Shown piece after piece: positions 36,343-60,818 of a stretch of DNA of 64,000 bases (positions within the stretch are counted from its first letter, which is position 1; every line of letters begins with the position of its first letter). Where the stretch lies: IMG/VR virus record IMGVR_UViG_3300032242_002920, positions 1-64,000 of that record. One strand, 5' to 3'. The stretch is from a virus. The notes beneath the pieces were generated by a model. It was not told where the DNA came from. It ran no database searches and saw only the letters and a program-made list of their open reading frames with translations. The position numbers and the translations under genes were made by a program.

Positions 36343-37260
36343 TTATAAATTGATAGGGTGCCTAGCAACATAGGCGCTATTGTCTACTGTAGCGGCCTGC
36401 CACCTAGACGGGTGCGCGCCTGACGTGTCAAATCTAAGTCCGGCAACGTACATGTAAGCATGACCGGAATTAGCGTAAACAGTAACCCACTTACCCGTTC
36501 CTGCGCGACCCCATGATTCTAATGATCCTGAGTCCATTGGAGTATCAAGTAGTTTTGCTCCGTGAAGAGCATATGATACCGAACCAGAACAATCATAACC
36601 CGAGTCTAAAAAAGATCCGTGGCCACCGCCCCATAGGTAAGGAAGAGTATTAATTTGATTTCCAGCCCAAATAACGCGTTTAACGGATTCTGGAGCATTA
36701 TTGGGGGCATATGCCACATTATTATAAAAAATTGCTCTAGAACCCATTACAATGGGTCTGAGAGGGTCTAGGCTAACCTTATAGGCGATCCTAGCGCGAA
36801 TCTTTTTAATTTTAGTTTTCCACTTGTATGTGTAGAAGTGAACAACGGGATTATTCCAATTATTCATTTGAATTCCACAGTGAACCCAAATGTCAAGTTG
36901 AGAACCCCAGCCAATGTGATCCTCTACCCTAAAGTAGTGTTTGCCATAAATAGCTTTAGGAAAATAAATATTCGTTCCTAATGGAAGAAAATTGTTGGCA
37001 ACTTCGCCAAACCTTGGCGTTGTTCCCATTGATGTGCTACCGCCACCACCTGAAGCATCACAACCTTCGGTAGAATAAGCAGTTGCTTGAACCGTAAACG
37101 ATTGAATTGGCACTCGTACACGATATTTTTGCGTCTTAATTACTACAGGACCCGGAATTGTTGTTGTAGGGATCTGTACTGTATTGGCTTTCGCCGTTTC
37201 AGGGGCAACAAATGTACCCAGAATAGCAGCAACAACTACTGCCGTTTTTGAATAAAGCAT
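36343..37260 (-). CDS. Secreted 3D-domain and NlpC/P60-like hydrolase, 305 aa
   Basis: Residues 1-26 are a signal peptide (YSKTAVVVAAILGTFVAPETAKA). Residues 50-130 carry a 3D (RlpA-like) domain: FTVQATAYSTEGCDASGG..MGTTPRFGEVANNFLPLGTNIYF..VEDHIG..LDIWV. The C-terminal 120 residues hold an NlpC/P60-like domain: LPYLWGGGHGSFLDSGYDCSGSVSY with its nucleophile-type Cys, and SGHAYMYV with His. ATG 37260 has AAGGAAAC at proper spacing; an in-frame GTG at 37278 does not. The architecture resembles actinobacterial cell-wall remodelling enzymes. Export through the host Sec system is inferred, so it could act from outside before or during lysis. Confidence 0.75.
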   Translation of the reverse strand: MLYSKTAVVVAAILGTFVAPETAKANTVQIPTTTIPGPVVIKTQKYRVRVPIQSFTVQATAYSTEGCDASGGGGSTSMGTTPRFGEVANNFLPLGTNIYFPKAIYGKHYFRVEDHIGWGSQLDIWVHCGIQMNNWNNPVVHFYTYKWKTKIKKIRARIAYKVSLDPLRPIVMGSRAIFYNNVAYAPNNAPESVKRVIWAGNQINTLPYLWGGGHGSFLDSGYDCSGSVSYALHGAKLLDTPMDSGSLESWGRAGTGKWVTVYANSGHAYMYVAGLRFDTSGAHPSRWQAATVDNSAYVARHPINL

Positions 37261-37558
37261 AAAGTTTCCTTGGAACACACCCTCTTGTCCTACATTTACT
37301 TCGCAAGCCCGTCTACTTTACAGCTAGACTTTAAACTACTTGGGCTGAGTGAGACCAGTGGAATAACTCCTTTCGTTCGTTTTAGAAAAACAAAAACCAA
37401 ATATCGGCTTGTGCAGATACTATACCAGATAGCACTGTATTAATCAAGCTTCACTTTGGCTTACTATTTACATGGTCGGTTCGCTGAGATAATCAGTGGC
37501 AAAGTCTCGTTAGTAGTATCAAGTTAAGTCATATATTGTTATAGAAAGAGAGAAATTT
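37261..37558. other. Intergenic region with divergent promoters
   Basis: About 300 bases without a gene separate the minus-strand lysis pair from the plus-strand connector operon. TATAGA-like and TATACC-like boxes occur near the plus-strand start, and AAAGAGAG gives that gene a ribosome-binding site. A long imperfect inverted region with AGCCC and GGGCT ends lies near 37300-37345. I cannot pick out one unambiguous promoter. No tRNA or ORF is seen. Confidence 0.4.
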
Positions 37559-41450: not shown

Positions 41451-41467
41451 TTTTGAAAGATATTTAT

Positions 41468-43918
41468 ATGGCCAGAACTTACGACAGACCACCCGGTGTA
41501 AAAGTCACCGAAGTTGCATCTACCAGCGTTGATCCGCTAATTGCCACTCCCGACCTTCTTTGCTTAGTTGGTCCCGCATCAGGAACTATTCAAAAGCAAG
41601 AATTAGTTGGTCCCCTAACTTATGTAACCGTCACCGGTGTAAGCTCTACTGCTGGCAGCAGTACGATTACTGTTACCGGTGGAGCATCTAACCTTTCAGT
41701 AGGGATGCTAGTAGAAAATGCTACCACCCCCGCTAATACAACTAGTCCCTTTGCACCAAATACGACTATTACAAATGTAAGCGGTAGCACAGTTACTTTA
41801 AGTCAAAACGCACTTGCAACCATTTCAAACGCCACAATCACTTGCGGCGTTCCAGTTAAATTTAATAACATTGGTACTACCGACGTACTTACTTTGTCAA
41901 GTGTAACTGCGGTTGCCGACCCGGATTCGACTCAAGCGCCCACTGGATATTCTTCAGCTAGCGGTTATTACAATAACATTGGTACCAGCACATATGGCGT
42001 CGCCAATTTGCAATTTGGATCATATTATTTTAATCCAACAAATCACACAATTGCTCCTAGGGCAGTTATTGCTAAAGCTGCTTTAAAGGCCGATGTTACG
42101 TCAAGTAGCACGACAATTACAGCAATTGGTGATCCAGATCAATTTTGTTCAAGCGGAACGATTATCATTAATGATTCTACAAATGGATCAGAGCAAATTT
42201 CTTATACCGGAATTACTACCCCAGCCGATGAATACCAAACAATTACTCTTTTAAACGCTACCGGCGGAACTTTTACTCTTAGCTTCAATGGCGTCACAAT
42301 TGCAACTCCCCTTAATTCTACTGCAAGTTCAAGTGATGTTCAATCGGCACTAGCCGGATTGTCTACCATTGGTGGTACTGGTAACGTAAGCGTTTCCGGA
42401 TCTAATGGTGGCCCTTATCGGGTTGAATTCAAAGGCAACTTTGCTGGTACAAACGTTCCATCTATTGTTGCAAATGGAGCCGCTCTTACAGGAACCAGTC
42501 CAACAATTACGGTAGCCGTAGCAACTTCCGGGGACAACAGCGAATTTGATTTCACAGGGTGCACAAGAGGAATTAATTCAACAAATGCCGTTGGTCACTC
42601 AGCAGATACCGGCACAAACACTTCAATCCAACAGGGTTTGGCGGTTCCAAGCGGAAGGTCCGTATTTGTTACATACAATTATACTCCGGCTAATTATTAT
42701 CAACCATATCTTATTGATGGCGCTACAACAAGCGACATTGAAAGTCGTTTTGGTCAAGCTGTTTCAAGCACCGATGGTGTGACAGTTATTTCACCACTTT
42801 CGCTTGCTGCTAAAATTGCAATTGAAAACGGTGCCAATCGATTCATCCTTCAACCATTGTTTTATTCGCCCGACACGGATGATGTCATGGCAAATAGGCA
42901 GGCTCCAACTAATGCTCAATCAGTTCTTGCAGATACATGGGCCAAGGTATTCAAAGGACTAAGAAGCCAAAGAAATATTGGCGTAATTGTTCCAATTCTT
43001 GGGCAAACTGCATCTTATACATATGGATCAGATGGAACTACAACTCCGGCAGATTTGACATCAACTGCCGATGCATTGCAAATTAACGTTGCAAAGAAAC
43101 TTCAAGAGCATATTGCATTTGTTGATCAAAATAATCAACAGTACACAATTGGTATTTTTGGCGAAGATTCGACTCAGGCCACAACTGCTCATAATTATGC
43201 TGATCGAGTTACCGTTCTCTTTAATCACATTAAACAACTTCAAACTTATGTAAGCAATAATACTTCCTACAATGAGCGCATGGTATTTATTGCTCAAACC
43301 AAGTTTAGTAAACCATCACTTACCGGCGGAACTACACCAATGTATCTTGGCGGTCAGTATGCCGCAGCAGCTATTGGCGGAATGCTCGTATCTCGCTCAG
43401 TTGCAACGCCTTTAACAAGAAAGGCCCTCGGTTCATTTTCAACTGTTGAAGATCTTAGAACTGATAAGAATAAAACGGAAGATTCTGGCCTTGGATTCTT
43501 GGTTATTGAACAAAAGAGGGATGGCACCATTCAGGTTCGTCATTCGCTTACTACAGATGTTACCAGTGTTGCCAAATCTGAACTTTCGGTTGTTAGGGCT
43601 AAATACTTTATGCTTAATTCTTTGGTTAACACCATTGATACTCAAATTATTGGCAAGATGGTTGCGGACGATGCTGCGCCTATTACAATTCAGACAACAA
43701 TTTCAAATGCCCTTAGAACTCTTCAAGAGGATGGAAATATCGTTGGATTTAGCGGAGTACAGGCAACTCCAAAATCAACGGATCCAACAATTATTGAAGT
43801 ACGATTTAATTATCGCCCAGCATTCCCAATCAACTACATTAATATCGCCTTTACAGTTGACTTAACTACTGGGGCCACATCAGTTACAACTGCGGACCAA
43901 GCTAACTTAGGAGCATAA
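41468..43918 (+). CDS. Tail sheath protein with nested inserted modules, 816 aa
   Basis: Start at ATG 41468 (MARTYDRPPGVKVTEV); an in-frame TTG at 41453 is less likely. The contractile sheath core is split: residues 1-50 and about 395-816, the latter with the C-terminal sheath pattern (YNERMVFIAQTKFSKPSL, YLGGQYAAAAIGGMLVSRSVATPLTRKALGS, DGTIQVRHSLTTDVTSV). Between them are a SVGMLVENATTP module (51-128), a GTIIINDSTNGSEQISYTG module (about 205-385), and within that an unrelated ATGGTFTLSFNGVTIATPL... module (about 255-355). The inserted domains should face outward on the tail surface. Confidence 0.88.
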   Translation: MARTYDRPPGVKVTEVASTSVDPLIATPDLLCLVGPASGTIQKQELVGPLTYVTVTGVSSTAGSSTITVTGGASNLSVGMLVENATTPANTTSPFAPNTTITNVSGSTVTLSQNALATISNATITCGVPVKFNNIGTTDVLTLSSVTAVADPDSTQAPTGYSSASGYYNNIGTSTYGVANLQFGSYYFNPTNHTIAPRAVIAKAALKADVTSSSTTITAIGDPDQFCSSGTIIINDSTNGSEQISYTGITTPADEYQTITLLNATGGTFTLSFNGVTIATPLNSTASSSDVQSALAGLSTIGGTGNVSVSGSNGGPYRVEFKGNFAGTNVPSIVANGAALTGTSPTITVAVATSGDNSEFDFTGCTRGINSTNAVGHSADTGTNTSIQQGLAVPSGRSVFVTYNYTPANYYQPYLIDGATTSDIESRFGQAVSSTDGVTVISPLSLAAKIAIENGANRFILQPLFYSPDTDDVMANRQAPTNAQSVLADTWAKVFKGLRSQRNIGVIVPILGQTASYTYGSDGTTTPADLTSTADALQINVAKKLQEHIAFVDQNNQQYTIGIFGEDSTQATTAHNYADRVTVLFNHIKQLQTYVSNNTSYNERMVFIAQTKFSKPSLTGGTTPMYLGGQYAAAAIGGMLVSRSVATPLTRKALGSFSTVEDLRTDKNKTEDSGLGFLVIEQKRDGTIQVRHSLTTDVTSVAKSELSVVRAKYFMLNSLVNTIDTQIIGKMVADDAAPITIQTTISNALRTLQEDGNIVGFSGVQATPKSTDPTIIEVRFNYRPAFPINYINIAFTVDLTTGATSVTTADQANLGA

Positions 43919-49077: not shown

Positions 49078-50700
49078 ATGAAAAGACTAGTTTATTCGCC
49101 TTCAGTTAAAGCGTGGGTAAAATCTGATTCAGGAGTAATAGATTTAAGTCCATATATCACTGATTGCAAAATTGAAAGAAAAGTAAATGATATAAGTACC
49201 GCTGAAATTACCTTTAGAAATCCTAGGGTATTACAAGACGGTAAACCTCGTTTTATGTTCACCGAAAAAACAAAAAACGATGGAACTGTTGGACCCGTTT
49301 TTCATCCTATGGACCCCATCACAATTGTTTTAAAAAGACTTGATGGCAAACCCGTTCAAGTATTTACGGGATATTGCGACAACGTGCCATATGTTCAGTT
49401 GTTTCCCGGAACTGCAAAAATTACTGCATCTTGTACTCTTAAAAGACTTCTTTACACTTATTGGGATCCGGGACTTGTTTTTGTTCGTGATTTTATGAAA
49501 AATTATGGATGGAGTTTAGGTGGCGATGGAGTAGTTCGACGCGGAAGTGGTGATTCGTATTTAACAGACACCACAAAAATTACTAATAATCAATTAAATG
49601 ATTCCAGTATTGGCAATTTGGTTTATGTTGTTTTAAATGAAATCGGTGGCTGGGATCCAAGTAATATTTTTATTGAACCACTTCCAGAAAATATTGGCGG
49701 AATTATCAGTCAATTATTTGATCAAATTGTAAGCGATAATAAAAAAGTTAATGCTGACATAGCAAAAGTGTTACAAGACATTGTTGGTAGCGGATCTTTT
49801 GGTACGTCAGGAACAGGATCGGGTATTTCAAATCAAACCACCGGCACGGTAACCATTATTGGTGACAGTATTACATACTACAGTGAAACTGCAATTCAGA
49901 ATGCAATATCAAACGCTCAAATTTTTGCGCAGATAGGAAAGCATATGAAACTTGATGCGGGAACAACTAACGGTGGAGATTCTGGATTAAAAATTCTTAA
50001 AGATAATAAAAATTCGCTTGGCGATGTTGTTGTTATTGCCTTGGGAACAAATGATGAAGACGTAAAAAATCCATCAACGTTTGAAGGTTGGATCGATCAA
50101 GCAATGCAAATTATTGGTTCTACTAAAACCGCCGTATTTGTTACTGTAACAAATAATGATAATGTTAACAATGCTATTAGAAATAGGGTTGCAAAATTTA
50201 ATAATTTAAAAATTGCCGATTGGAAATCAAAGGCACAACTTGGACCAGATGGCATTCACCCTACCGCTCACGGTCAAAAGGTATTTGCAAAAACTATAGC
50301 AGATGTTGTTAATTCAATTTTACCTGCAAACCCAGAAGCTACTACGGGAACTGCGGTTTACGAAGGAATTCGTATGGCGTCTTGGATTGTTCCAATTCTT
50401 AAATGGGCAAGGCAACATGGTTGGAATGGAACAATTATAAATGGATATAGATCATACGCTAAGCAAAAAGAACTTCATGACGCATGGATTGCAAGAGGCA
50501 AAACTGGTCTTCCGGCAGCCGCGCCGGGTACAAGTAATCACGAAGGAAGCGAGTTTCCTCGCGGTGCTGTCGATGTAGATGAAGCTTCCGCTCCCGAATT
50601 AAGTAGAATTCTTTTAAGTGGGCCATACGCTACTACTTTGGTATACGCTGGAGATGCTGACGTTGTTCACTTTTCACATCCTCATAACGGTGGATTTTAA
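49078..50700 (+). CDS. Baseplate hub paralogue 1 with SGNH and M15 domains, 540 aa
   Basis: Residues 1-243 are the shared hub domain (YSPSVKAWVKSDSG..DLSPYITDC, FHPMDPITIV, VQVFTGYCDNVPYVQLFPG, ASCTLKRLLYTYWDPG). It resembles the N-terminal half of gp27/late-control-D hubs of actinophages. A Gly/Ser linker leads to an SGNH hydrolase (G262-D263-S264; G323-T-N325-D326; D391-x-x-H394). Residues 425-540 carry an M15-type carboxypeptidase: INGYRSYAKQKELHDAW, TSNHEGSEFPRGAVDV (H488, D499) and VVHFSHP (H531). It could de-acylate and cut peptidoglycan at the point of penetration. Confidence 0.8.
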   Translation: MKRLVYSPSVKAWVKSDSGVIDLSPYITDCKIERKVNDISTAEITFRNPRVLQDGKPRFMFTEKTKNDGTVGPVFHPMDPITIVLKRLDGKPVQVFTGYCDNVPYVQLFPGTAKITASCTLKRLLYTYWDPGLVFVRDFMKNYGWSLGGDGVVRRGSGDSYLTDTTKITNNQLNDSSIGNLVYVVLNEIGGWDPSNIFIEPLPENIGGIISQLFDQIVSDNKKVNADIAKVLQDIVGSGSFGTSGTGSGISNQTTGTVTIIGDSITYYSETAIQNAISNAQIFAQIGKHMKLDAGTTNGGDSGLKILKDNKNSLGDVVVIALGTNDEDVKNPSTFEGWIDQAMQIIGSTKTAVFVTVTNNDNVNNAIRNRVAKFNNLKIADWKSKAQLGPDGIHPTAHGQKVFAKTIADVVNSILPANPEATTGTAVYEGIRMASWIVPILKWARQHGWNGTIINGYRSYAKQKELHDAWIARGKTGLPAAAPGTSNHEGSEFPRGAVDVDEASAPELSRILLSGPYATTLVYAGDADVVHFSHPHNGGF

Positions 50701-51978
50701 ATGAAACGCCTTGTATATAGCCCTTCAGTTAAAGCGTGGGTAAAAACTGATTCTGGTGTTGTAGATCTTAGTCCGTATATTATTAACTGTACAATTAAAA
50801 GAAATATTGACGATGTTAGTAAAGCTGAAATTACTTTTAGAAATCCTAAAGTAATTCAAAGCGGTAAAAACAGATTCATGTTTACTGAACACGAAGATGA
50901 AAATGGTCAAATCAAACCAGTTTTTCACCCCATGGATCCTATCACAATTGTTATGGAAAGAGTTGCAAATAAACCCGTTCAAGTATTTACCGGTTATTGC
51001 GATACAACTCCATATGTTCAATTATTTCCGGGTGCCGCTAAAATTAACGCGTCTTGTACTTTAAAGAGACTTTTGTATACGTACTGGGATCCCGGCCTTC
51101 TTTTTGTTCGCGATTTTATGAAAAATTACGGATGGACTATTGGTAATAACGGTCAAGCCGTAAATGAAAAACTTTCGACAAAAGCAGAAAATTTTGCTGA
51201 TAAACCGGCTAAATCGGTCAATCTTAATGATTCTAGTATCGGCAATTTAGTTTATGCAACTCTTAATGAAATTGGCGGCTGGGACCCAAGTAATATTTAC
51301 ATTCAACCTTTGCCCGACAATATTGCAACAACTGTATCCAAACTTTTTGACGAAATTGTTCAAGAAGACAAAAATATTGAAGAAAGTTTAGCGGATGTTA
51401 TGCAAAAAATTGTTGGTAGTGGAAGTTATGGAACTCTAGGTACCGTGAATGGTAGCAGTCAAGCATCTACTGGGGGTGGTGGAAGCGTTGGAACGGCCCC
51501 CGTTGCGGCGGCAAATGCCCCACAATTATTACAAAAATTAATTAACGAATGTAATCGTATTGCAAATCATAGGACCTATTATTCTCAAGCGCACAGAAAT
51601 GGTTCCGCTGGTGTTCAACAACCAAATAAAGCCAGTGACGGGTCGTATTATTTTGACTGCTCTAGTTTTGTATCATATATAATGAATTTCATCGGACATT
51701 ATGGGGGCAATATGACTTGGGCAGAAGTTTCAGGATGGTTTCAAAGTAGCTGGGGTAAACAGGGCAAGGGTAAATACTTAACTGTTTGGGCTAACCCGGA
51801 GCACGTTTTCTTAGAGATTAAAGATCAAAATGGATCGTCTAAATTTATTGGAACTTCGAGTTATATTGAGGGGCAAAATCCCGATTCAAATAGTCCCGTT
51901 GGTCACAGTCATACAGTTGGTTGGATGGGCAGTTATACCACTGATGCGTTTACTCCTAAGCACATTCCGGGGTTTTAA
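50701..51978 (+). CDS. Baseplate hub paralogue 2 with NlpC/P60 domain, 425 aa
   Basis: Residues 1-245 repeat the shared hub domain with high protein similarity to the neighbours. A Gly/Ser/Ala-rich linker (246-275) is followed by an NlpC/P60 or amidase-type domain: helix LLQKLINECNRIANHRTYYSQ, then GSYYFDCSSFVSYI (nucleophile C320) and NPEHVFLEI (H368). It starts immediately after the first paralogue. It probably hydrolyses stem or cross-link peptides. Confidence 0.8.
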   Translation: MKRLVYSPSVKAWVKTDSGVVDLSPYIINCTIKRNIDDVSKAEITFRNPKVIQSGKNRFMFTEHEDENGQIKPVFHPMDPITIVMERVANKPVQVFTGYCDTTPYVQLFPGAAKINASCTLKRLLYTYWDPGLLFVRDFMKNYGWTIGNNGQAVNEKLSTKAENFADKPAKSVNLNDSSIGNLVYATLNEIGGWDPSNIYIQPLPDNIATTVSKLFDEIVQEDKNIEESLADVMQKIVGSGSYGTLGTVNGSSQASTGGGGSVGTAPVAAANAPQLLQKLINECNRIANHRTYYSQAHRNGSAGVQQPNKASDGSYYFDCSSFVSYIMNFIGHYGGNMTWAEVSGWFQSSWGKQGKGKYLTVWANPEHVFLEIKDQNGSSKFIGTSSYIEGQNPDSNSPVGHSHTVGWMGSYTTDAFTPKHIPGF

Positions 51979-53207
51979 TGAAACGATTAGTTTATTCACC
52001 GTCAATTAAAGTTTGGGTAAAAACAGATTCGGGCGTTGTTGATTTAAGTCCATATGTCGTCAATTGCAGAATTGAACGCAAAATTGATGACGTAAGTTTT
52101 GCCGAAGTTGAATTTCGAAATCCTAAAATTACTCAAAATGGTAAAAATCGATTTATGTTTACTGAGCATGAAACTGACGGTAAGGTACTGCCAGTTTTTC
52201 ATCCCATGGATCCAATTACCATAGTTGTTGAAAGATTAGCTGGCAAACCCGTACAAGTGTTTACTGGTTATTGTGATACGGTTCCAGACGTTCAATTATT
52301 TCCGGGAACGGCAACAATTAAAGCATCTTGTACTCTTAAAAGATTACTTTATACGTACTGGGATCCGGGACTTCCTTTCGTTCAAGAATTTTTAAAAAAT
52401 TATGGATGGAATTTAGACATGACAACCGGTAAAGCTGGAAAACCATTAAGTACGGAAAATCAAAATGTTTCTAAAGTAAATAAATTAAACGATTCTAGTA
52501 TTGGTAATTTGGTTTACGCGGTTTTAAATGAAATCGGCGGTTGGGATCCGAGTAATATTTTTATTCAACCATTACCCGGAAATATTGCAGACATCGTTTC
52601 AAAACTTTTTGATGAAATAGCAAAAGAAAACAAAAATGTTAATAAAGAAATTGCAGACGTTTTACAAAAAATTGTTGGCAATGGTACATTTGGAACAGCT
52701 TCAGCAGGAGGCGGAGGTGGTAGCGCTCCCGGAGGCGAGCCGGGAACAAGTGGCGCGGTTCATAATTTAAGACAAAAAATCAACATTATACGCGCATCCG
52801 CAAATCAATATGGCATTCCACCTGAGTTTCCTCTTGCAGTTGCTATTGTTGAAACCAGTTTGGAAGATAATGCGGATACTGGAACTTATCATGGTTGGTA
52901 CCAATGGGCAAGTTCTGAATCCTATGTTGGTCAACCAACTTTGGATATGTCAAAGGCGCACGACCTTGGTTATGCATCAGGGCAATTTTGCAGAGCAGCC
53001 AAAGCTCGTGAAAAATACAAACAATATGGGTACCCAACATGGGCTAGATCTTGTCAGTTAAATCCATCTAGCGTTAATAACGCTGCGACGCATGGAATAT
53101 ACGGGGCCTTTAATCCAAACCCAGATAGCAATGCATTGTACAGTGACGCTAGATTTCCAGAATTTATTAATCAAGCTAAAGAATATTTAAGACAGTATCC
53201 AAACTAG
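51978..53207 (+). CDS. Baseplate hub paralogue 3 with transglycosylase-like domain, 409 aa
   Basis: Residues 1-240 are the third copy of the shared hub domain. After a Gly-rich linker (241-260) comes a lysozyme/SLT-like domain: helix KINIIRASANQYGIPPEFPLAVAIVETSLEDNADTGTYHGWYQW, with E292 in the place of the catalytic acid, then a long helical region. It is expected to cut the glycan strand between MurNAc and GlcNAc. It overlaps the previous stop (TAATG). Confidence 0.78.
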   Translation: MKRLVYSPSIKVWVKTDSGVVDLSPYVVNCRIERKIDDVSFAEVEFRNPKITQNGKNRFMFTEHETDGKVLPVFHPMDPITIVVERLAGKPVQVFTGYCDTVPDVQLFPGTATIKASCTLKRLLYTYWDPGLPFVQEFLKNYGWNLDMTTGKAGKPLSTENQNVSKVNKLNDSSIGNLVYAVLNEIGGWDPSNIFIQPLPGNIADIVSKLFDEIAKENKNVNKEIADVLQKIVGNGTFGTASAGGGGGSAPGGEPGTSGAVHNLRQKINIIRASANQYGIPPEFPLAVAIVETSLEDNADTGTYHGWYQWASSESYVGQPTLDMSKAHDLGYASGQFCRAAKAREKYKQYGYPTWARSCQLNPSSVNNAATHGIYGAFNPNPDSNALYSDARFPEFINQAKEYLRQYPN

Positions 53208-53256
53208 CAAAGTAGCATTACCTTTAGAGTAATAAGAGAAAGATAGGAATAAAATT

Positions 53257-54777
53257 ATGAGAGCAAATGCGCCCGCAGGCGGACCGGCAACACCGGCAGT
53301 AAAGAAACCCGCTAATATTTTTCCACAAGGAACTAGTCAAAACGTTCATAAGATTCAAACTGATGCGGGAACGTATGGTGCGTCGGTTAACGGAAATACA
53401 GTTAAATATCAAACGTATGTAATACACACTGCGGGAACCCATTTTGATGTTGCAGCCCCTGTTAAATGTTTAGTCGCATCAGTTAAAAATTCGGGTAATA
53501 ATAAAAAAGTTTTAATTCAATTTTTAGAAACCATCGGTCTTTATAAAGCCGGTGATTATATGTCAATTTCTGCGCTTTCTGGCAGTATTAGCATTGGACA
53601 TCAATACAAAAAGGGCGCAGTTATTGGAACCAGTAGTGATAATACGGTTTCTATTGCTATGAATCCATCAGGAGCCAAAAATGGACGTATTACTCTTGAT
53701 GGAGCGGCTGACCCAGCAAAATTTGTTGATTATGCTCAAGGAGTGGCCGATGCAGCCGGGAATCCAACTAGTGCAACTAGTGCAACTGGAACTAATAATG
53801 ATACTGCTAGCGCTGGTGGAACGGACGTAGGTTCCATTGCAAAAGCTGCGGCATTTTCTACATTTTTTACACTGCCGGGTATCTTCAATACTTATGAATC
53901 TCAAAGTTTAACTGGTCAAAGAAGCTTAATGAATGATCAGCCACTTATGCCATTTATTCAACAATTATGTGGAGCTTGCCTTAGGCATTTTATGTCTACT
54001 CCTACCGGCGATTTCTTTGCATTTTATCCAGATTATTTTGGCGGATTAGGTAAAACCGCCTATTGGCTTATTGAAGACATTGAAGTTATAAATGGAAGTA
54101 TTGAATTATCTGACGATCAATTGGCAACTCATGTTTACGTTGTTGGAGACATTGTTGGAGCGCCATCCGGTGCGCTTGGAGGTAATGGTATTGATACATT
54201 AGATCGTTTAAACACGGGTGGAGTGGTAACTATTTTCAATGCATTTATGGCTGATTTCTTAAATGGTACAGATGTTTCTGGAGCCGCTAAAGTAGATAAA
54301 ACAAAGTACCCAACTCTTGCTGACAAAGCTGACGCCATCGCGTTCCTTCAAAAGTATGGGGCCAGACCATATTACGAAGAACAACCTACAGTTCGAGCGC
54401 CCATTTATGAAGCATTTTTAGCTTATCAAAAATTTTGTTTAAAATGGTCCGATCAATTTAAAACGACGTTTGAATTTACTTTTATGCCTGAACTTTATCC
54501 GGGCGGTTTAGTTGCATTTCCAGAGCATGGTTTGCAATGTTATGTTAACTCCGTAACGCATAACTGTTCTTACGAAACAGGATTTACTACAACTGCTGAA
54601 TTATCAGCGCCCTCTGCATTTAAGGGTGGCGATGGCAATCCACTTGATCCGGATAAAGCATGGGTTCACGCTGGCATGATTAGGTCTTGGCCAACCGATG
54701 ACAATGTTGGCGCTTTTACAGGAGCTACGGATACGGATCCAGCCCAACAAAAAACTAAGGGCAAGGGCAAGAAATAA
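53257..54777 (+). CDS. Second-half hub protein with degenerate M23-like domain, 506 aa
   Basis: The C-terminal part, with FAFYPDYFGGLGKTAYWLIEDIEVINGSIELSDDQLATHVYVVGDI, resembles the second half of actinophage late-control-D/gp27-like hubs, which the three paralogues lack. Residues 50-140 resemble the duplicated hybrid motif of M23 peptidases (GTHFDVAAPVKCLVASV, then ISIGHQYKKGAVIG). The HxxxD and HxH metal residues are not conserved, so this part is probably inactive or structural. It stands right after the three paralogues with AGGAA before the ATG, so it likely completes one hub together with them. Confidence 0.65.
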   Translation: MRANAPAGGPATPAVKKPANIFPQGTSQNVHKIQTDAGTYGASVNGNTVKYQTYVIHTAGTHFDVAAPVKCLVASVKNSGNNKKVLIQFLETIGLYKAGDYMSISALSGSISIGHQYKKGAVIGTSSDNTVSIAMNPSGAKNGRITLDGAADPAKFVDYAQGVADAAGNPTSATSATGTNNDTASAGGTDVGSIAKAAAFSTFFTLPGIFNTYESQSLTGQRSLMNDQPLMPFIQQLCGACLRHFMSTPTGDFFAFYPDYFGGLGKTAYWLIEDIEVINGSIELSDDQLATHVYVVGDIVGAPSGALGGNGIDTLDRLNTGGVVTIFNAFMADFLNGTDVSGAAKVDKTKYPTLADKADAIAFLQKYGARPYYEEQPTVRAPIYEAFLAYQKFCLKWSDQFKTTFEFTFMPELYPGGLVAFPEHGLQCYVNSVTHNCSYETGFTTTAELSAPSAFKGGDGNPLDPDKAWVHAGMIRSWPTDDNVGAFTGATDTDPAQQKTKGKGKK

Positions 54778-56720
54778 TGGCTATTAAACATTTTGTTAAT
54801 CCATCGTTGGGTCCTAGACAAATGGGGCTTATTACAACTGTTGAACCTGCAACTCGCAAAATTGAAGCAAAATTAAAAGATGGTGGAGAGATTGCAGTTT
54901 CGCTCTTTGATATTCCTCCATTTTTTGTTTGGCCTAAAGTGGGCGACCTTTGGATTATTCGTAAAGATGGTGGATATTGGAAACTTGATACTAAAATTGA
55001 TACGGATAAAGAATACCCTGTAGATAATTTAAATGCAGGCGAGGGTAAAATTAGCGCGGACATTATCAAAACACCGTCTGGTAAAAACGTCGTCGTTGTT
55101 GATAAAACAAATGGCACTAACGGCCAAGTTGTTCAATATAAAGATGGCGCATGGATTCTTGGAGAAGTTGTAACCAGCGGAGGGTCCAGTACAGATATTC
55201 AGGCTACTGTAGCTGGGTCAGCCGCCGGAACAGATCCAACAGTAACAAAAAGAGTTGTTGGAACAACAACTTATTTTGATTTTACAATTCCTAGCGGAGC
55301 AACTGGCGCACAAGGTAATCCCGGAGCCGTTCAAACTGTTACCACATCTTCTGGGTCTGGTATCACAATTGGAGGAACCGGTGCTAATCCAACTGTAAGC
55401 ATTGACACAACAAAAGTTGCAACTTATAGCGGATCTACTCTTGCATCTGGAATCACATCATCTTCTTTAACCAAAATTGGCACATTGTCATCTGGCGCTG
55501 GAACGGCTTTTGTTAAAACAGACGGAAGCGGAAATTTAACTACTGATTCAAATACATATCTTACTGGCAACCAAACTATTACTATGTCAGGAGATGTTTC
55601 CGGTAGCGGTACAACTTCAATTACTAATATGGCAATTGGTTCTGGTAAAGTTACAGATTCTATGATTAATGCCGGTATAACTACCGGTAACGCCAGTCCT
55701 ACGTCGGGAGCCGCATCTTCGCTTCTTGTCAGCGCGGGGAACGCCCTTGGTTCTACAATTACTTCAACTAATCCAGTTATAGATAAATCATATCTTAATA
55801 ATACAATCGCTTCAACGGTTGATATTTCTACTGCCGCAATCTCGACTGGTACAAAAATTGTAAACATTGGAACCAATTCTGCTGCTGGTTCAACGACCAA
55901 TATTAATATTGGCTCGCAAGCAGGAACCGCTGGTTTAAATATATATTCTGGAGCGACAACTGCCGCAATGTCTTTTGGCGTATATGGATCGACGCCATTA
56001 ATTAGCTTCGGAACCAGTGCTTTGATAACTGACATTAATATGAATAGTCATAAAGTTACAAATGTTACAGATCCAACTTCCGCTCAAGATGCGACGACTA
56101 AGAATTATGTCGATTATAATGGAAGATTAAATTTTTCTACAACTGGTTACACTGCTAAGGCATCAATTGTGTGTGTGCAACAAAGACCGGAAATAGTTCA
56201 AGGTGTAACAAATATCAGTTTATCAACTGCGGGTTATACCTATTATGTCAAGTTTATTCCATCTACATCTATTACCGTTACTGCCGGATCTTCTACGGTT
56301 AAAGTATATAATACATTAAGCTCTAATTCAACTTTTAATGGTAAAATCAGATTTTATGATAGTTCGGGTAATTATTTGCTTAATTCTGGTTTAACTACAG
56401 TTGTAGAAACTTCTACAATTACATTAAGTGGAGGCGCGGGACTTAAAACTGGAACTTTTGGCGGAGGTATGACTGGCACCGCCTCTCTAACAGCGGGAAC
56501 GGTTTATTGGGCTGGAATTTGGGTTCCAACTACTGCAACTGGTACGGCCCCGGTTCTTTCTGATTCTTCATATTTACAAAATCAAGCTTGGTACGGTACC
56601 GGATTAACACTTGCTAATGCGGATTATTATGTATCAACTTCTACAAGTACCGGAAATCCACCCGCGACTATAACAGGTGCATCTGCAACTCAGGGTCCAT
56701 TTATTCTTATTACTCCATAA
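54777..56720 (+). CDS. OB-fold baseplate spike fused to a fibre, 647 aa
   Basis: The N-terminal 75 residues (GLITTVEPATRKIEAKLKDGGEIAVSLFDIPPFFVWPKVGDLWIIRKDGGYWKLD) look like the OB-fold of spike/gpV/gp5-like proteins that seat on the hub. The rest is fibre-like: GATGAQGNPGA, NPTVSIDTTKV, TGNQTITMSGDVSGSG, DINMNSHKVTNVTDPTSAQDATTKNYVDYNG and a beta tip. So the spike carries its own fibre rather than an ordinary needle. The TAATG overlap couples it to the hub gene. Confidence 0.65.
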   Translation: MAIKHFVNPSLGPRQMGLITTVEPATRKIEAKLKDGGEIAVSLFDIPPFFVWPKVGDLWIIRKDGGYWKLDTKIDTDKEYPVDNLNAGEGKISADIIKTPSGKNVVVVDKTNGTNGQVVQYKDGAWILGEVVTSGGSSTDIQATVAGSAAGTDPTVTKRVVGTTTYFDFTIPSGATGAQGNPGAVQTVTTSSGSGITIGGTGANPTVSIDTTKVATYSGSTLASGITSSSLTKIGTLSSGAGTAFVKTDGSGNLTTDSNTYLTGNQTITMSGDVSGSGTTSITNMAIGSGKVTDSMINAGITTGNASPTSGAASSLLVSAGNALGSTITSTNPVIDKSYLNNTIASTVDISTAAISTGTKIVNIGTNSAAGSTTNINIGSQAGTAGLNIYSGATTAAMSFGVYGSTPLISFGTSALITDINMNSHKVTNVTDPTSAQDATTKNYVDYNGRLNFSTTGYTAKASIVCVQQRPEIVQGVTNISLSTAGYTYYVKFIPSTSITVTAGSSTVKVYNTLSSNSTFNGKIRFYDSSGNYLLNSGLTTVVETSTITLSGGAGLKTGTFGGGMTGTASLTAGTVYWAGIWVPTTATGTAPVLSDSSYLQNQAWYGTGLTLANADYYVSTSTSTGNPPATITGASATQGPFILITP

Positions 56721-56770: not shown

Positions 56771-57220
56771 ATGACTTGGAGTTTAAAATTAACAGCAGAT
56801 GGAGATTTGGCTCTAGGTAGCCATGGATTTGCCGAGGTTGCGAATGAAGAAAAACTTATTCAAGATTTGCGATGCGAATTATTGGAACCTAAAGGGTTAA
56901 ATCCTTTAAACCCTCAATATGGTTCAAACCTTGAAGGCGAATTGTCTTCTGATTTTATGACAACTGACAATGAGCTAATGACAAGGATTGAGGCCGATAT
57001 TATGGAGGTTATTAAAAGTTACCAAGACCGACAGCTTGCTAGGGCAAAATACGACAAAATGGTTAGAGGTTCAGCCACTTTGACTCCAAAAGAAGTAGTG
57101 GTTGCCGCTCAAATTTCAAATTTTGTTCCTAATCAAACAAGCGTAAATGTTACCGTAGACATTACCACTGCTTCGTCAAGTCCAACTCAATACCCCGTAC
57201 AACTCAATCTTACAATTTAA
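56771..57220 (+). CDS. Baseplate wedge protein, gpW/gp25-like
   Basis: The 149 residues fit the gp25/gpW family (GDLALGSHGFAEVANEEKLIQDLRCELLEPKGLNPLNPQYGSNLEGELSSDF...). In T4 and Mu-like phages this protein sits in the wedge and helps to trigger sheath contraction. A nearby baseplate J-like gene supports the call. Confidence 0.8.
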   Translation: MTWSLKLTADGDLALGSHGFAEVANEEKLIQDLRCELLEPKGLNPLNPQYGSNLEGELSSDFMTTDNELMTRIEADIMEVIKSYQDRQLARAKYDKMVRGSATLTPKEVVVAAQISNFVPNQTSVNVTVDITTASSSPTQYPVQLNLTI

Positions 57221-57224
57221 TTAA

Positions 57225-60200
57225 ATGGCTACACAAAAACAAATTTCAGAAAGCATTAGACAGCAGTTAAGGATTTTAGATCCTTCAATTTCTGCTGAAG
57301 ACGGTACGCCAGAACGGAAAATTATCGATACGGTAGCGCAAGCAATTGCGGACGCTCAGGTAGACCTTAATGTTCTTAATGGCGCATTTGATGTTGAGGC
57401 TAAATATTCTTCTGATCTTGATAACATGCTTGCAATTTTGGGCTTTGGTCGTCAGCAAGGGTCAAAGGCAACTGGATTTGTTACATTTTCTAGAGCAGAT
57501 GTGGCTACTGCGCCAGTTGTTATTAATGCTAATACAACCATATTTACTCCATCTGGTGGTTCAAATAATACTAGCGTTGTATTTAGAACCACAACAACTG
57601 TCACCCTTCCAATTGGAAGTAAATCAGTTACAGCTCCAATTGAGGCAATTCAAGCGGGAACAATTGGCAACGTTGCTGCCGGTACTATTACCGAAACCGT
57701 TGGTAATCCAATTTATGGTATTACATCAGTAAACAATGATTATCCAACAACTGGTGGACAAGATGCTGAGTCGGATGTTGAATTAAAAGCTCGATTTATG
57801 ACAAATGGGGCCTTTCGTAATGTAGCTGGTACACGCGATCAATATACAGCGCTTGCCCTTTCTACGGTTTCTAAAAAAGCAAATGTTGTAGGACCCATTT
57901 CAACTTATCAAGAGTATATTCAAGTACCGGACAATTCAGATGTTTCTGGTGGCACAGAATACACTACTGCACTATCAAATAACACAAATTCAAAACATAT
58001 TTATGATAATGCGCCATATTTTGTTATGAATGACTCTGGAGTGTCTCCAGTTTATTACAATGCAGACATGGATTTTGTTTTAAATGTTCTTCCTACAAAA
58101 AAGGCAAAGGGGGACGCTTTAAGAAACGTAGCTTCGGTAGATCCAACTTCAACAACTGCTCCAACAATTTATCAGCCTAATGTAACATTTACTAATGTTT
58201 ATACCGATTTAATGACTAATAAACCGGAAGATGCAATCGCTCCCGGAGATACGCTTTTCTTTCAGCATAGTTACATGTCAACTGCTTCAAGAAATGATTA
58301 TGATCGAAATATTTTAAACTGCGTTGATGTATATGTAAATGGAGAAGACGCACAAAATGCAAGTTCCATGATTTCACGCCCCGGAGTTGAAGTCCCGACT
58401 CATTTGTTTACAGACGATGTTTATAGTGCATTTTATGTAAACAATTATCGTCGCGTTGATGAACCGGGTCATAGGCCTGTTAAGGGCAACGTTTATACTC
58501 CGTTGTATAAACAACCTATTATCAATTTGCCCAATCAAATCAGTTTATCAACTGGAACATTTCAAAAGGGCATTCATTATTGGCTGGTTGAAGAAACCAC
58601 AAACCTTTATGGAACAATTAGAGCAAGAAACGGCATTGAATGGTCTTCAACAATCAAAGCTAAAACATCTAATGACCCAGATATTGGTCCATATACTGGG
58701 CCGTATATTGCGGACACTTCAATTTCTAGCACAACGTTATCCGTAGATCTTCCTTCATCTAGTTCAATATCAACCACTACTGCTGCTCAAACTTATACAG
58801 TTACAAATAAACAACTTACGAGCAATGTGGCAAAGCTTACCATTGGAACTCACACGCTAAACGTTAACGATGTAGTTGCTGTGACCGGAGTTGATTCTAC
58901 GTTTAATCAAACTTCGGCAAAAATTACTGCAATTGATTCTACTAGTATTTCTTATCAACTTACAGCATCTAATGTTGCATCTACTAGCTCAAGCGGCACG
59001 GTTACTTTATCAACAATTTATTCTGGTAATAAAACGCCGATTAAATTAACTTCAACGGATTTTCTTCCCGCATCTGGATATATTTTAATTGGTAGTGAAA
59101 TTGTTCAATTTAGTGCAAAAACTGGATCTACTGGCAGTCCGGCAAATACATTAACTATTACGGGAAGAGGACAGTTTGGAACAACTGCCAAAGATATTCC
59201 TGCAAGTGCTACTACTGTTAATGTTCTTTTTCAAGTTGCTCAAGCTTCTGGTTTACCGACTAACGATACATTGTTAATTGGTTCTGAGCAAATTTCATAC
59301 AACCTTCCTGTGGGCACTTCAACTTCCCTAGTTCAGCCAATTTTACGAGGAATTAATGGCAGCTATGTAACTTCTCATAGTAACGGTGATACCGTTTCAG
59401 TATTGTTTACAACAGTTGATAAATCGATTTCAATTGAAAATTATCAATACGACGCAAATATTATCTTATTACAATCATTACTTGATAATAATAAACAAGT
59501 TACTACCGATGTACTTGCTCATAAGGCTAAAACACGTTACTTTAAACCCGATATTACGGTTATGTATTCGCCAAGTGCAAACAAAACAAATATTAATGAA
59601 TCTATTAGAAAATCTTTGGCAAATTATTTTGATACCGTTTACTTTGGTAACGAAATTCAAATGTCAGACATTCTTCAAACTGTTCACAATGTTGGCGGCG
59701 TTGACAATGTAAAATGGTCAAGAGATACCCTTGATGAGCAATCTAAAAATTATGATTCTGATGGTGACGCACGAATTAGAATGGTTGAAACAAATGTATA
59801 CGGCGACCCTGTTGCAACGCCCGTTTTAGATTTGGTAAGGGTTGGCGACGGAATTACGCCAACTGAATATAGACTTTATCTTCCATATTTATCAAAAATT
59901 GATCAAAGTGAACTTTCGGTTCCAACAAATATAACAACATCAACAAGTACTTCAACGGGAACACTCGGTGCAGGAACATATTATTATACTGTTACCGCCA
60001 TTAATGTTAATGGAGAGACTACAGCAGGTACGGCAACCTCTGGAGTTGCGGTTACCGGGTCAACCAATACTGTAACAATTAACTGGAACCCTGTTGATAA
60101 AGCAACCGGTTACAAAGTTTATCGTACCACATTAGCAGGTCCAGATTTTTCAACCGGTAAACTTCTTGTAGCGCAAATTGATGATCAAGGCACAACTTCT

Positions 60201-60818
60201 TTAGATGACGATGGAAGTTATACGCTTACAGCCGGAATTCCTCCTACAACAAACACCGCCATTATAGCAAACATTCATACCGATGTGGTTAGTACGTTTG
60301 ATATTCAATATGCTAATAATCAGCCAATTACAATTCAATATGATGATTTTATTCTTACGACATTTGATGTAAACGCCCTTTATGCTAAGGGTGATATTGT
60401 AATGTATGGAGGCTTGTATTATCAATCGCAAGTTGATAATAATGAAGGCAACGAACCTACTGCAACCTCTAGCTCGTATTGGAAACAAGATACTGTAAAC
60501 AAAATTGGATTCCAAGCAAAAATTAATTCACTTGGTAATGTTGTTAATGTGACAAGTCCCAATAATTTTGTTAGCGGTCCATCTTTTGATAATTATATCA
60601 CAATTAAACTTATTAATCCGGCTTCATCTGATCGTTTGCAAATTACTAATTCTATTATTAATAATGGATATGGTGCATACAATGACGATTTTCAAATTGG
60701 CGATGATGAATTAGTCGCACTTCCAAATGGTACGCAAGATGATGTGGGTAATTTAATAATGTCTTCGGTTATGACCGTCAGAGTAAAATCTCAAAATACT
60801 TGGAGCAATAGAGTATGA
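57225..60818 (+). CDS. Baseplate J-like wedge protein with inserted modules, 1197 aa
   Basis: Residues 1-230 match baseplate J-like proteins (PERKIIDTVAQAIADAQVDLNVLNGAFDVEAKYSSDLDNMLAILGFGRQQG..., PTTGGQDAESDVELKARFM). Later modules are an NTHTLNVNDVVAVTGV-like block near 525, two IGSE(Q)I-S/Y modules (about 618-700), an Fn3-like module (about 903-1002: TYYYTVTAINVNGET...ATGYKVYRTT) and a CBM5/12-like segment (about 1046-1088: ALYAKGDIVMYGGLYYQSQVDNNEG). The family usually is much shorter, so the extras are decorations. It overlaps the next gene by ATGA. Confidence 0.75.
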   Translation: MATQKQISESIRQQLRILDPSISAEDGTPERKIIDTVAQAIADAQVDLNVLNGAFDVEAKYSSDLDNMLAILGFGRQQGSKATGFVTFSRADVATAPVVINANTTIFTPSGGSNNTSVVFRTTTTVTLPIGSKSVTAPIEAIQAGTIGNVAAGTITETVGNPIYGITSVNNDYPTTGGQDAESDVELKARFMTNGAFRNVAGTRDQYTALALSTVSKKANVVGPISTYQEYIQVPDNSDVSGGTEYTTALSNNTNSKHIYDNAPYFVMNDSGVSPVYYNADMDFVLNVLPTKKAKGDALRNVASVDPTSTTAPTIYQPNVTFTNVYTDLMTNKPEDAIAPGDTLFFQHSYMSTASRNDYDRNILNCVDVYVNGEDAQNASSMISRPGVEVPTHLFTDDVYSAFYVNNYRRVDEPGHRPVKGNVYTPLYKQPIINLPNQISLSTGTFQKGIHYWLVEETTNLYGTIRARNGIEWSSTIKAKTSNDPDIGPYTGPYIADTSISSTTLSVDLPSSSSISTTTAAQTYTVTNKQLTSNVAKLTIGTHTLNVNDVVAVTGVDSTFNQTSAKITAIDSTSISYQLTASNVASTSSSGTVTLSTIYSGNKTPIKLTSTDFLPASGYILIGSEIVQFSAKTGSTGSPANTLTITGRGQFGTTAKDIPASATTVNVLFQVAQASGLPTNDTLLIGSEQISYNLPVGTSTSLVQPILRGINGSYVTSHSNGDTVSVLFTTVDKSISIENYQYDANIILLQSLLDNNKQVTTDVLAHKAKTRYFKPDITVMYSPSANKTNINESIRKSLANYFDTVYFGNEIQMSDILQTVHNVGGVDNVKWSRDTLDEQSKNYDSDGDARIRMVETNVYGDPVATPVLDLVRVGDGITPTEYRLYLPYLSKIDQSELSVPTNITTSTSTSTGTLGAGTYYYTVTAINVNGETTAGTATSGVAVTGSTNTVTINWNPVDKATGYKVYRTTLAGPDFSTGKLLVAQIDDQGTTSLDDDGSYTLTAGIPPTTNTAIIANIHTDVVSTFDIQYANNQPITIQYDDFILTTFDVNALYAKGDIVMYGGLYYQSQVDNNEGNEPTATSSSYWKQDTVNKIGFQAKINSLGNVVNVTSPNNFVSGPSFDNYITIKLINPASSDRLQITNSIINNGYGAYNDDFQIGDDELVALPNGTQDDVGNLIMSSVMTVRVKSQNTWSNRV

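Follow-up and report, generated by a model that had tools for sequence, protein, structure and literature searches.

Four consecutive genes at positions 49,078-54,777 of IMG/VR virus record IMGVR_UViG_3300032242_002920 are described here as a baseplate hub that has been cut into two genes and whose front half (N-half) is present in three differently armed copies, followed by a single rear half (C-half). The stretch analysed, positions 1 to 64,000 of the record, is referred to as the window, and the part of each N-half gene that lies beyond the common scaffold is referred to as its payload.

The split hub and its triplicated front half

49078-50700, plus strand: hub N-half paralogue 1, 540 residues (scaffold 49078-49794; predicted SGNH hydrolase, about 49858-50280; predicted M15/VanY-like peptidase, about 50395-50697)
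50701-51978, plus strand: hub N-half paralogue 2, 425 residues (scaffold 50701-51423; predicted NlpC/P60-like cysteine peptidase, about 51505-51975)
51978-53207, plus strand: hub N-half paralogue 3, 409 residues (scaffold 51978-52685; predicted lysozyme-like domain, about 52770-53204)
53257-54777, plus strand: hub C-half, 506 residues (degenerate M23/LytM-like domain, about 53404-53712; C-half core 53821-54759)

All four open reading frames were confirmed at these coordinates, the first three abutting and the fourth lying 49 bases further on, and the C-half gene occurs as a single copy across the 132 kb record. As the original prediction from the bare sequence had claimed, the three adjacent genes share about 240 N-terminal residues (64-69% identity, CTLKRLLYTYWDPG included) and are unrelated beyond that point. 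A PHROG scan aligned the N-halves to profile positions 47-307 of phrog_2810 (E 2.6e-35 to 3e-41) and the fourth gene to positions 632-920 of the same profile (E 9e-62), such that homology to a recognised virion protein family covers both halves. In phages of Mycobacterium, Gordonia and Rhodococcus, and also in more than 20 viral contigs, this family of 952 profile positions is encoded by a single open reading frame; both hub halves were found together in 211 phage records. As the N-halves and the 53257 protein correspond to opposite ends of phrog_2810, they derive from one ancestral hub protein that was split and whose front end was triplicated. This relation was absent from the original prediction, which had nevertheless correctly read the 53257 gene as the second half of a hub with a degenerate M23-like domain.

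In the fused relative L034, the N-half, a lysozyme-like domain, an M23-like region (a label read from its sequence, Pfam giving no match there) and the C-half follow one another along one chain, and this domain order places the most likely point of the split between enzyme and M23-like domain. Identity among the three paralogues is 0.52-0.55 at third codon positions versus 0.85 at second positions, indicating that the paralogues are old and under selection. Recent duplication, assembly artefact and switching cassette were all rejected, given the age of the paralogues, the recurrence of the arrangement in other phages and the absence of inverted repeats at the locus.

A sequence search of the PDB returned no match for the N-half or the C-half, and the fold was assessed from predicted models. 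The model of L034 (951 residues; predicted local distance difference test score, pLDDT, 64 overall and about 85-95 across much of the N-half) matches the hubs of the Algoriphagus and Anabaena injection systems, of Milano and of phage 7-7-1, as well as those of MuSo2, Mu gp44, VgrG and T4 gp27 (best E 1.7e-5 among all of these). The model of the window C-half, of low confidence (pLDDT 53), matches the Milano, MuSo2, Mu and T4 hubs (best E 5.3e-4). With models of moderate and low confidence, respectively, the predicted fold of the fused relative and of the window C-half thus matches a hub of the gp27/gp44 type (Mu gp44/T4 gp27/VgrG), of which the window hub is a variant, as its N-half and C-half lie on separate genes rather than on a single chain. 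The assignment of the two halves to alternating barrels of the gp27 ring is a reading of strand patterns against the known gp27, not a computed superposition.

The front domain of the C-half is modelled better (pLDDT ~80 in this region) and matches the LytM domain 8s0u; however, the M23 zinc ligands HxH/HxxxD, which are intact in the M23 domain of a related phage (L010), are gone, and the domain is probably inactive. As L010 holds an intact M23 at the equivalent place, the domain in the window has decayed and probably became structural.

Recurrence of the arrangement in other phages

Whole records were searched with N-half and C-half profiles; several of these records are fragments in which the hub loci are complete. 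Scanning viral contigs with the gene 2 protein alone returned no relatives, and alignment queries were required. Exactly three N-halves and one C-half were found record-wide in the window phage and in L001, L002 (identical to L003), L004, L005, L031 and L032. The same complement is present in the cultured Eggerthella phage LE2-3 (MW679026.1; L036 13138-22726), where the three N-halves LE23_91, LE23_92 and LE23_104 and the single C-half LE23_105 are annotated merely as tail or baseplate proteins, and where two of the N-halves lie ~5 kb upstream of the third with fibre-like genes between. The triplet, for which a search of related phages had been proposed, therefore recurs, in eight split-hub phages in all including the window phage, one of them very distant.

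Other layouts were also recovered. L044 has one N-half and one C-half, and L049 (8112-13629) has a split hub pair with a complete fused hub gene directly behind. In L010 (7393-14186), the tandem array consists of two N-halves and three C-halves, the mirror of the window arrangement, with the C side triplicated instead and its copies carrying intact M23, M23 and NlpC/P60 domains. The remaining records of the census are single fused genes. A search of viral contigs with the LE2-3 C-half found none, and a search of genome contigs gave three copies, all fused.

Homologues of the hub C-half also occur in genomes of cultured strains. Fused one-gene forms were seen on contigs of Candidatus Solirubrobacter pratensis (L064) and Streptomyces sp. 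A0642 (L066), and a C-half homologue annotated as an NlpC/P60 protein lies on the Streptomyces plasmid record NZ_CP041653.1; these occurrences suggest prophages or phage-plasmids of this group. A further fused hub, L047 (7679-10903), has an SGNH hydrolase inserted within its N-half in addition to SLT_3 and M23 domains, an alternative route to a multi-enzyme hub.

Payload enzymes, scaffold selection and neighbouring genes

The original prediction had named the payloads as SGNH plus M15, NlpC/P60 and a lysozyme-like domain, and these assignments found support of differing strength when profiles for M15, NlpC/P60 and SLT domains were searched. Gene 2 has no direct Pfam match for NlpC/P60, but profile-profile comparison by hhalign with a set of related payloads (one member of which, L010 C3, matches NLPC_P60 weakly) gave a probability of 99.4%, and the motifs FDCSSF and EHVF are present; family homology together with this Cys/His motif predicts a peptidase. 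The gene 1 payload matches two Pfam profiles, Lipase_GDSL_2 at E 1.6e-4 and VanY at E 5.6e-4, neither of which reaches the Pfam cut-off. The sequence does show the SGNH blocks GDS, GxND and DxxH together with a pattern of M15 metal ligands, SNH..D..HFSH, and these weak profile scores and catalytic motifs point to SGNH plus M15/VanY. The gene 3 payload reached 86% in profile-profile comparison to SLT_3-type domains, with no Pfam match over the cut-off, and shows clear homology (E 7e-16) to the enzyme that comes first in fused hubs, making a lysozyme-like prediction that is less firm than that of NlpC/P60 for gene 2. A 311-residue protein encoded elsewhere in the window (36343-37278, minus strand) ends in an NlpC/P60-like domain that shares homology with the gene 2 payload; this protein is a candidate endolysin and possibly a source of hub payloads.

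The scaffolds are conserved. In two close phage pairs, the ratio of nonsynonymous to synonymous substitution rates (dN/dS) is 0.04-0.09 for all N-half scaffolds, indicating purifying selection. This extends to an N-half copy in L004 (6270-7010) that has no enzyme at all, the scaffold of which is conserved with a dN/dS of 0.048, part of which may date from before the enzyme was lost. In a tree of N-halves, the deep branches unite copies of the same phage, whereas within the close pairs L001/L002 and L004/L005 copies cluster according to their position. Between the window and L001, the pairing 1-1, 2-2, 3-3 is best (479 identical sites versus at most 460), while tree and alignment resolve no orthology of N1, N2 and N3 beyond window-L001/L002 and L004-L005. 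Some positions are alike in all copies of one phage and differ between phages (L, N or Q after CTLKRL).

Payloads behave differently. Among the seven metagenomic phages with three N-halves and one C-half, window included, there is no detectable homology between the payloads of one phage, and each LE2-3 payload matches a Pfam family of its own, with two of these three families being cysteine-peptidase types related to each other. For the gene 2 peptidase, the nearest payloads are those of L004/L005, although the window scaffolds cluster with L001/L002. Copy 3 of L001 (8688-9929) and copy 2 of L031 (9805-11049) have a common payload module (E 5e-53) without a Pfam match, possibly an unrecognised wall enzyme, and modules of the RlpA-like, amidase, SLT and M23 types turn up repeatedly, at varying positions among phages. 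Judged from these comparisons, payload modules move independently of the scaffolds.

The following genes surround the hub locus:

41453-43918, plus strand: tail sheath (phrog_2839, E 1.3e-47)
54777-56720, plus strand: 647-residue protein that keeps its position behind the C-half in relatives
56771-57220, plus strand: gp25-like baseplate wedge protein (phrog_2669, E 1.6e-9)
57225-60818, plus strand: baseplate J-like wedge protein (PF04865, E 4.5e-22)

The gene order is that of a hub, with the sheath upstream and the gp25-like and J-like genes downstream, and these neighbours together with a tail assembly chaperone indicate a contractile tail. The 54777-56720 protein is without a family match in Pfam and PHROG scans; we would guess that it is a central spike whose distal part varies. 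WhiB, sought as a host marker, was absent.

Probable assembly of the hub and comparison with known systems

Phage hubs are usually regarded as homotrimers. In the window, where one hub family is split, triplicated on its N side and armed with different enzymes, we infer from the genes that all three N-halves pair with the same C-half, that they mix within a virion and that they may do so in a 1:1:1 ratio. An ancestral chain of N-half, enzyme or enzymes, M23-like domain and C-half would have been split between enzyme and M23-like domain, leaving a single C-half gene to make the common part of the ring, and the N-half gene would have been triplicated and each copy re-armed, with SGNH plus M15, NlpC/P60 and lysozyme. 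The hub trimer would be a pseudo-sixfold ring of three N-half and three C-half barrels and hence offer three N-half places, which the three proteins most likely fill as a mixture, perhaps one apiece. The enzymes of one tail tip would then be directed at glycan, stem-peptide and ester or acetyl bonds at the same time.

As a half hub alone cannot form a ring and there is only one C-half, three C-halves with three N-half places are the simplest assembly, and since distant relatives show the same three-to-one pattern, a mixed enzyme set on one needle tip is suggested. The original prediction had proposed either a mixed hub or a choice among hub subunits. Its premise of a shared second half for three differently armed first halves stands, in eight phages, and mixing is its most economical reading; subunit choice may still apply, though no inverted repeats were found at the locus and the genes abut. 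A trimeric hub of three C-half chains and a mixture of the three N-halves, perhaps one of each, is therefore considered probable, because what it predicts is matched by three different N-halves that are retained and encoded together and by the enzyme-less copy, which is retained too. The stricter form, an obligate asymmetric 1:1:1 hub in which three non-interchangeable N-halves sit on a threefold-symmetric (C3) C-half ring, every needle tip shows three different wall-cutting enzymes, and enzymes are exchanged as cassettes on a conserved scaffold of three places, is put forward only tentatively.

Several observations weigh against mixing. Three N-halves are not obligatory after the split, given the one-plus-one hub of L044, the split pair and fused copy of L049 and the two-plus-three set of L010. 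Clustering of the N-half tree by phage implies either repeated triplication or old copies in concerted change. In addition, paralogy is no proof of mixing, since VgrG1 of Serratia does not mix with VgrG2 (PMC4924876), and for Aeromonas dhakensis a homotrimer whose tails vary is sufficient (PMC8668125).

The same separation of the Serratia VgrGs (PMC4924876) would fit alternative homotypic hubs, with three copies of one N-half per virion and a burst forming a mixed, bet-hedging population; the single C-half could pair with each N-half alone, and L044 is an existing hub of this composition. We regard this as unlikely, as the enzyme-less N-half of L004, under purifying selection, would yield virions without an N-half enzyme, tight gene packing suggests co-expression rather than choice, and switch repeats are absent. 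Less probable still is a hub built with a single N-half, most likely number 3, which carries the ancestral lysozyme, while the remaining two serve as accessory tail lysins that use the same scaffold to attach at another baseplate site or in a second ring. Although paralogue 3 retains the payload type of fused relatives and two LE2-3 N-halves are located away from the C-half gene, all three copies retain the complete N-half, its conserved core being the same in each, and the loci read showed no extra partner gene next to the copies. Redundant duplicates that serve as raw material for enzyme swapping without a combined role would suit a gene 2 payload nearer to L004/L005, contrary to the scaffold tree, but are very improbable with synonymous sites near saturation, dN/dS at 0.04-0.09 and three copies in 8/8 such phages, one very distant.

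If the mixed hub is correct, several enzymes would be delivered at one puncture point without a very long chain and be exchangeable as cassettes, and the threefold chemical symmetry of the tip would be broken. The phages would also provide a natural set of wall-enzyme combinations apparently working jointly against actinobacterial walls, and the mixed-spike question debated for VgrG becomes testable in the cultured phage LE2-3. No description of a split, triplicated phage hub or of a mixed phage hub was found in the open-access literature.

The nearest known systems are the fused phrog_2810 hubs of Ceeclamvirinae mycobacteriophages, Gordonia phage Pupper and Rhodococcus phage E3 (Myrna gp132, E3 gp119), which have homologous halves, wall enzymes between them (NlpC/P60; SLT_3 + NlpC/P60) and a similar gene neighbourhood; in contrast to the window hub, each is one gene and one chain, with the same enzymes on every trimer subunit. 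T4 gp27, Mu gp44 and P2 gpD share the predicted fold and baseplate place but are unsplit, and the T4 lysozyme is on gp5. The claim that hubs normally carry one lysozyme did not survive, as cyanophage A-1(L) gp15 (PMC10966104) and Bacillus thuringiensis phage 0305phi8-36 gp147 (PMC2147016) are single-chain hubs with at least two wall enzymes, as are the fused relatives in E3 (SLT_3 + NlpC/P60) and L047 (three enzymes); gp15 and gp147 resemble the window hub in their several wall-degrading domains, but on one chain and without paralogous half-hubs. The VgrG spikes of type VI secretion systems likewise have paralogous gp27-like trimer subunits with different C-terminal payloads, although these are full-length paralogues, not half-hubs with one partner, they serve bacterial secretion, and mixing is not general (PMC4924876). 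The comparison with a VgrG heterotrimer is a functional analogy only. Mixed VgrG trimers have been proposed in Vibrio cholerae and A. dhakensis, and the V. cholerae set includes one paralogue without a payload (PMC8668125), which the enzyme-less N-half of L004 resembles.
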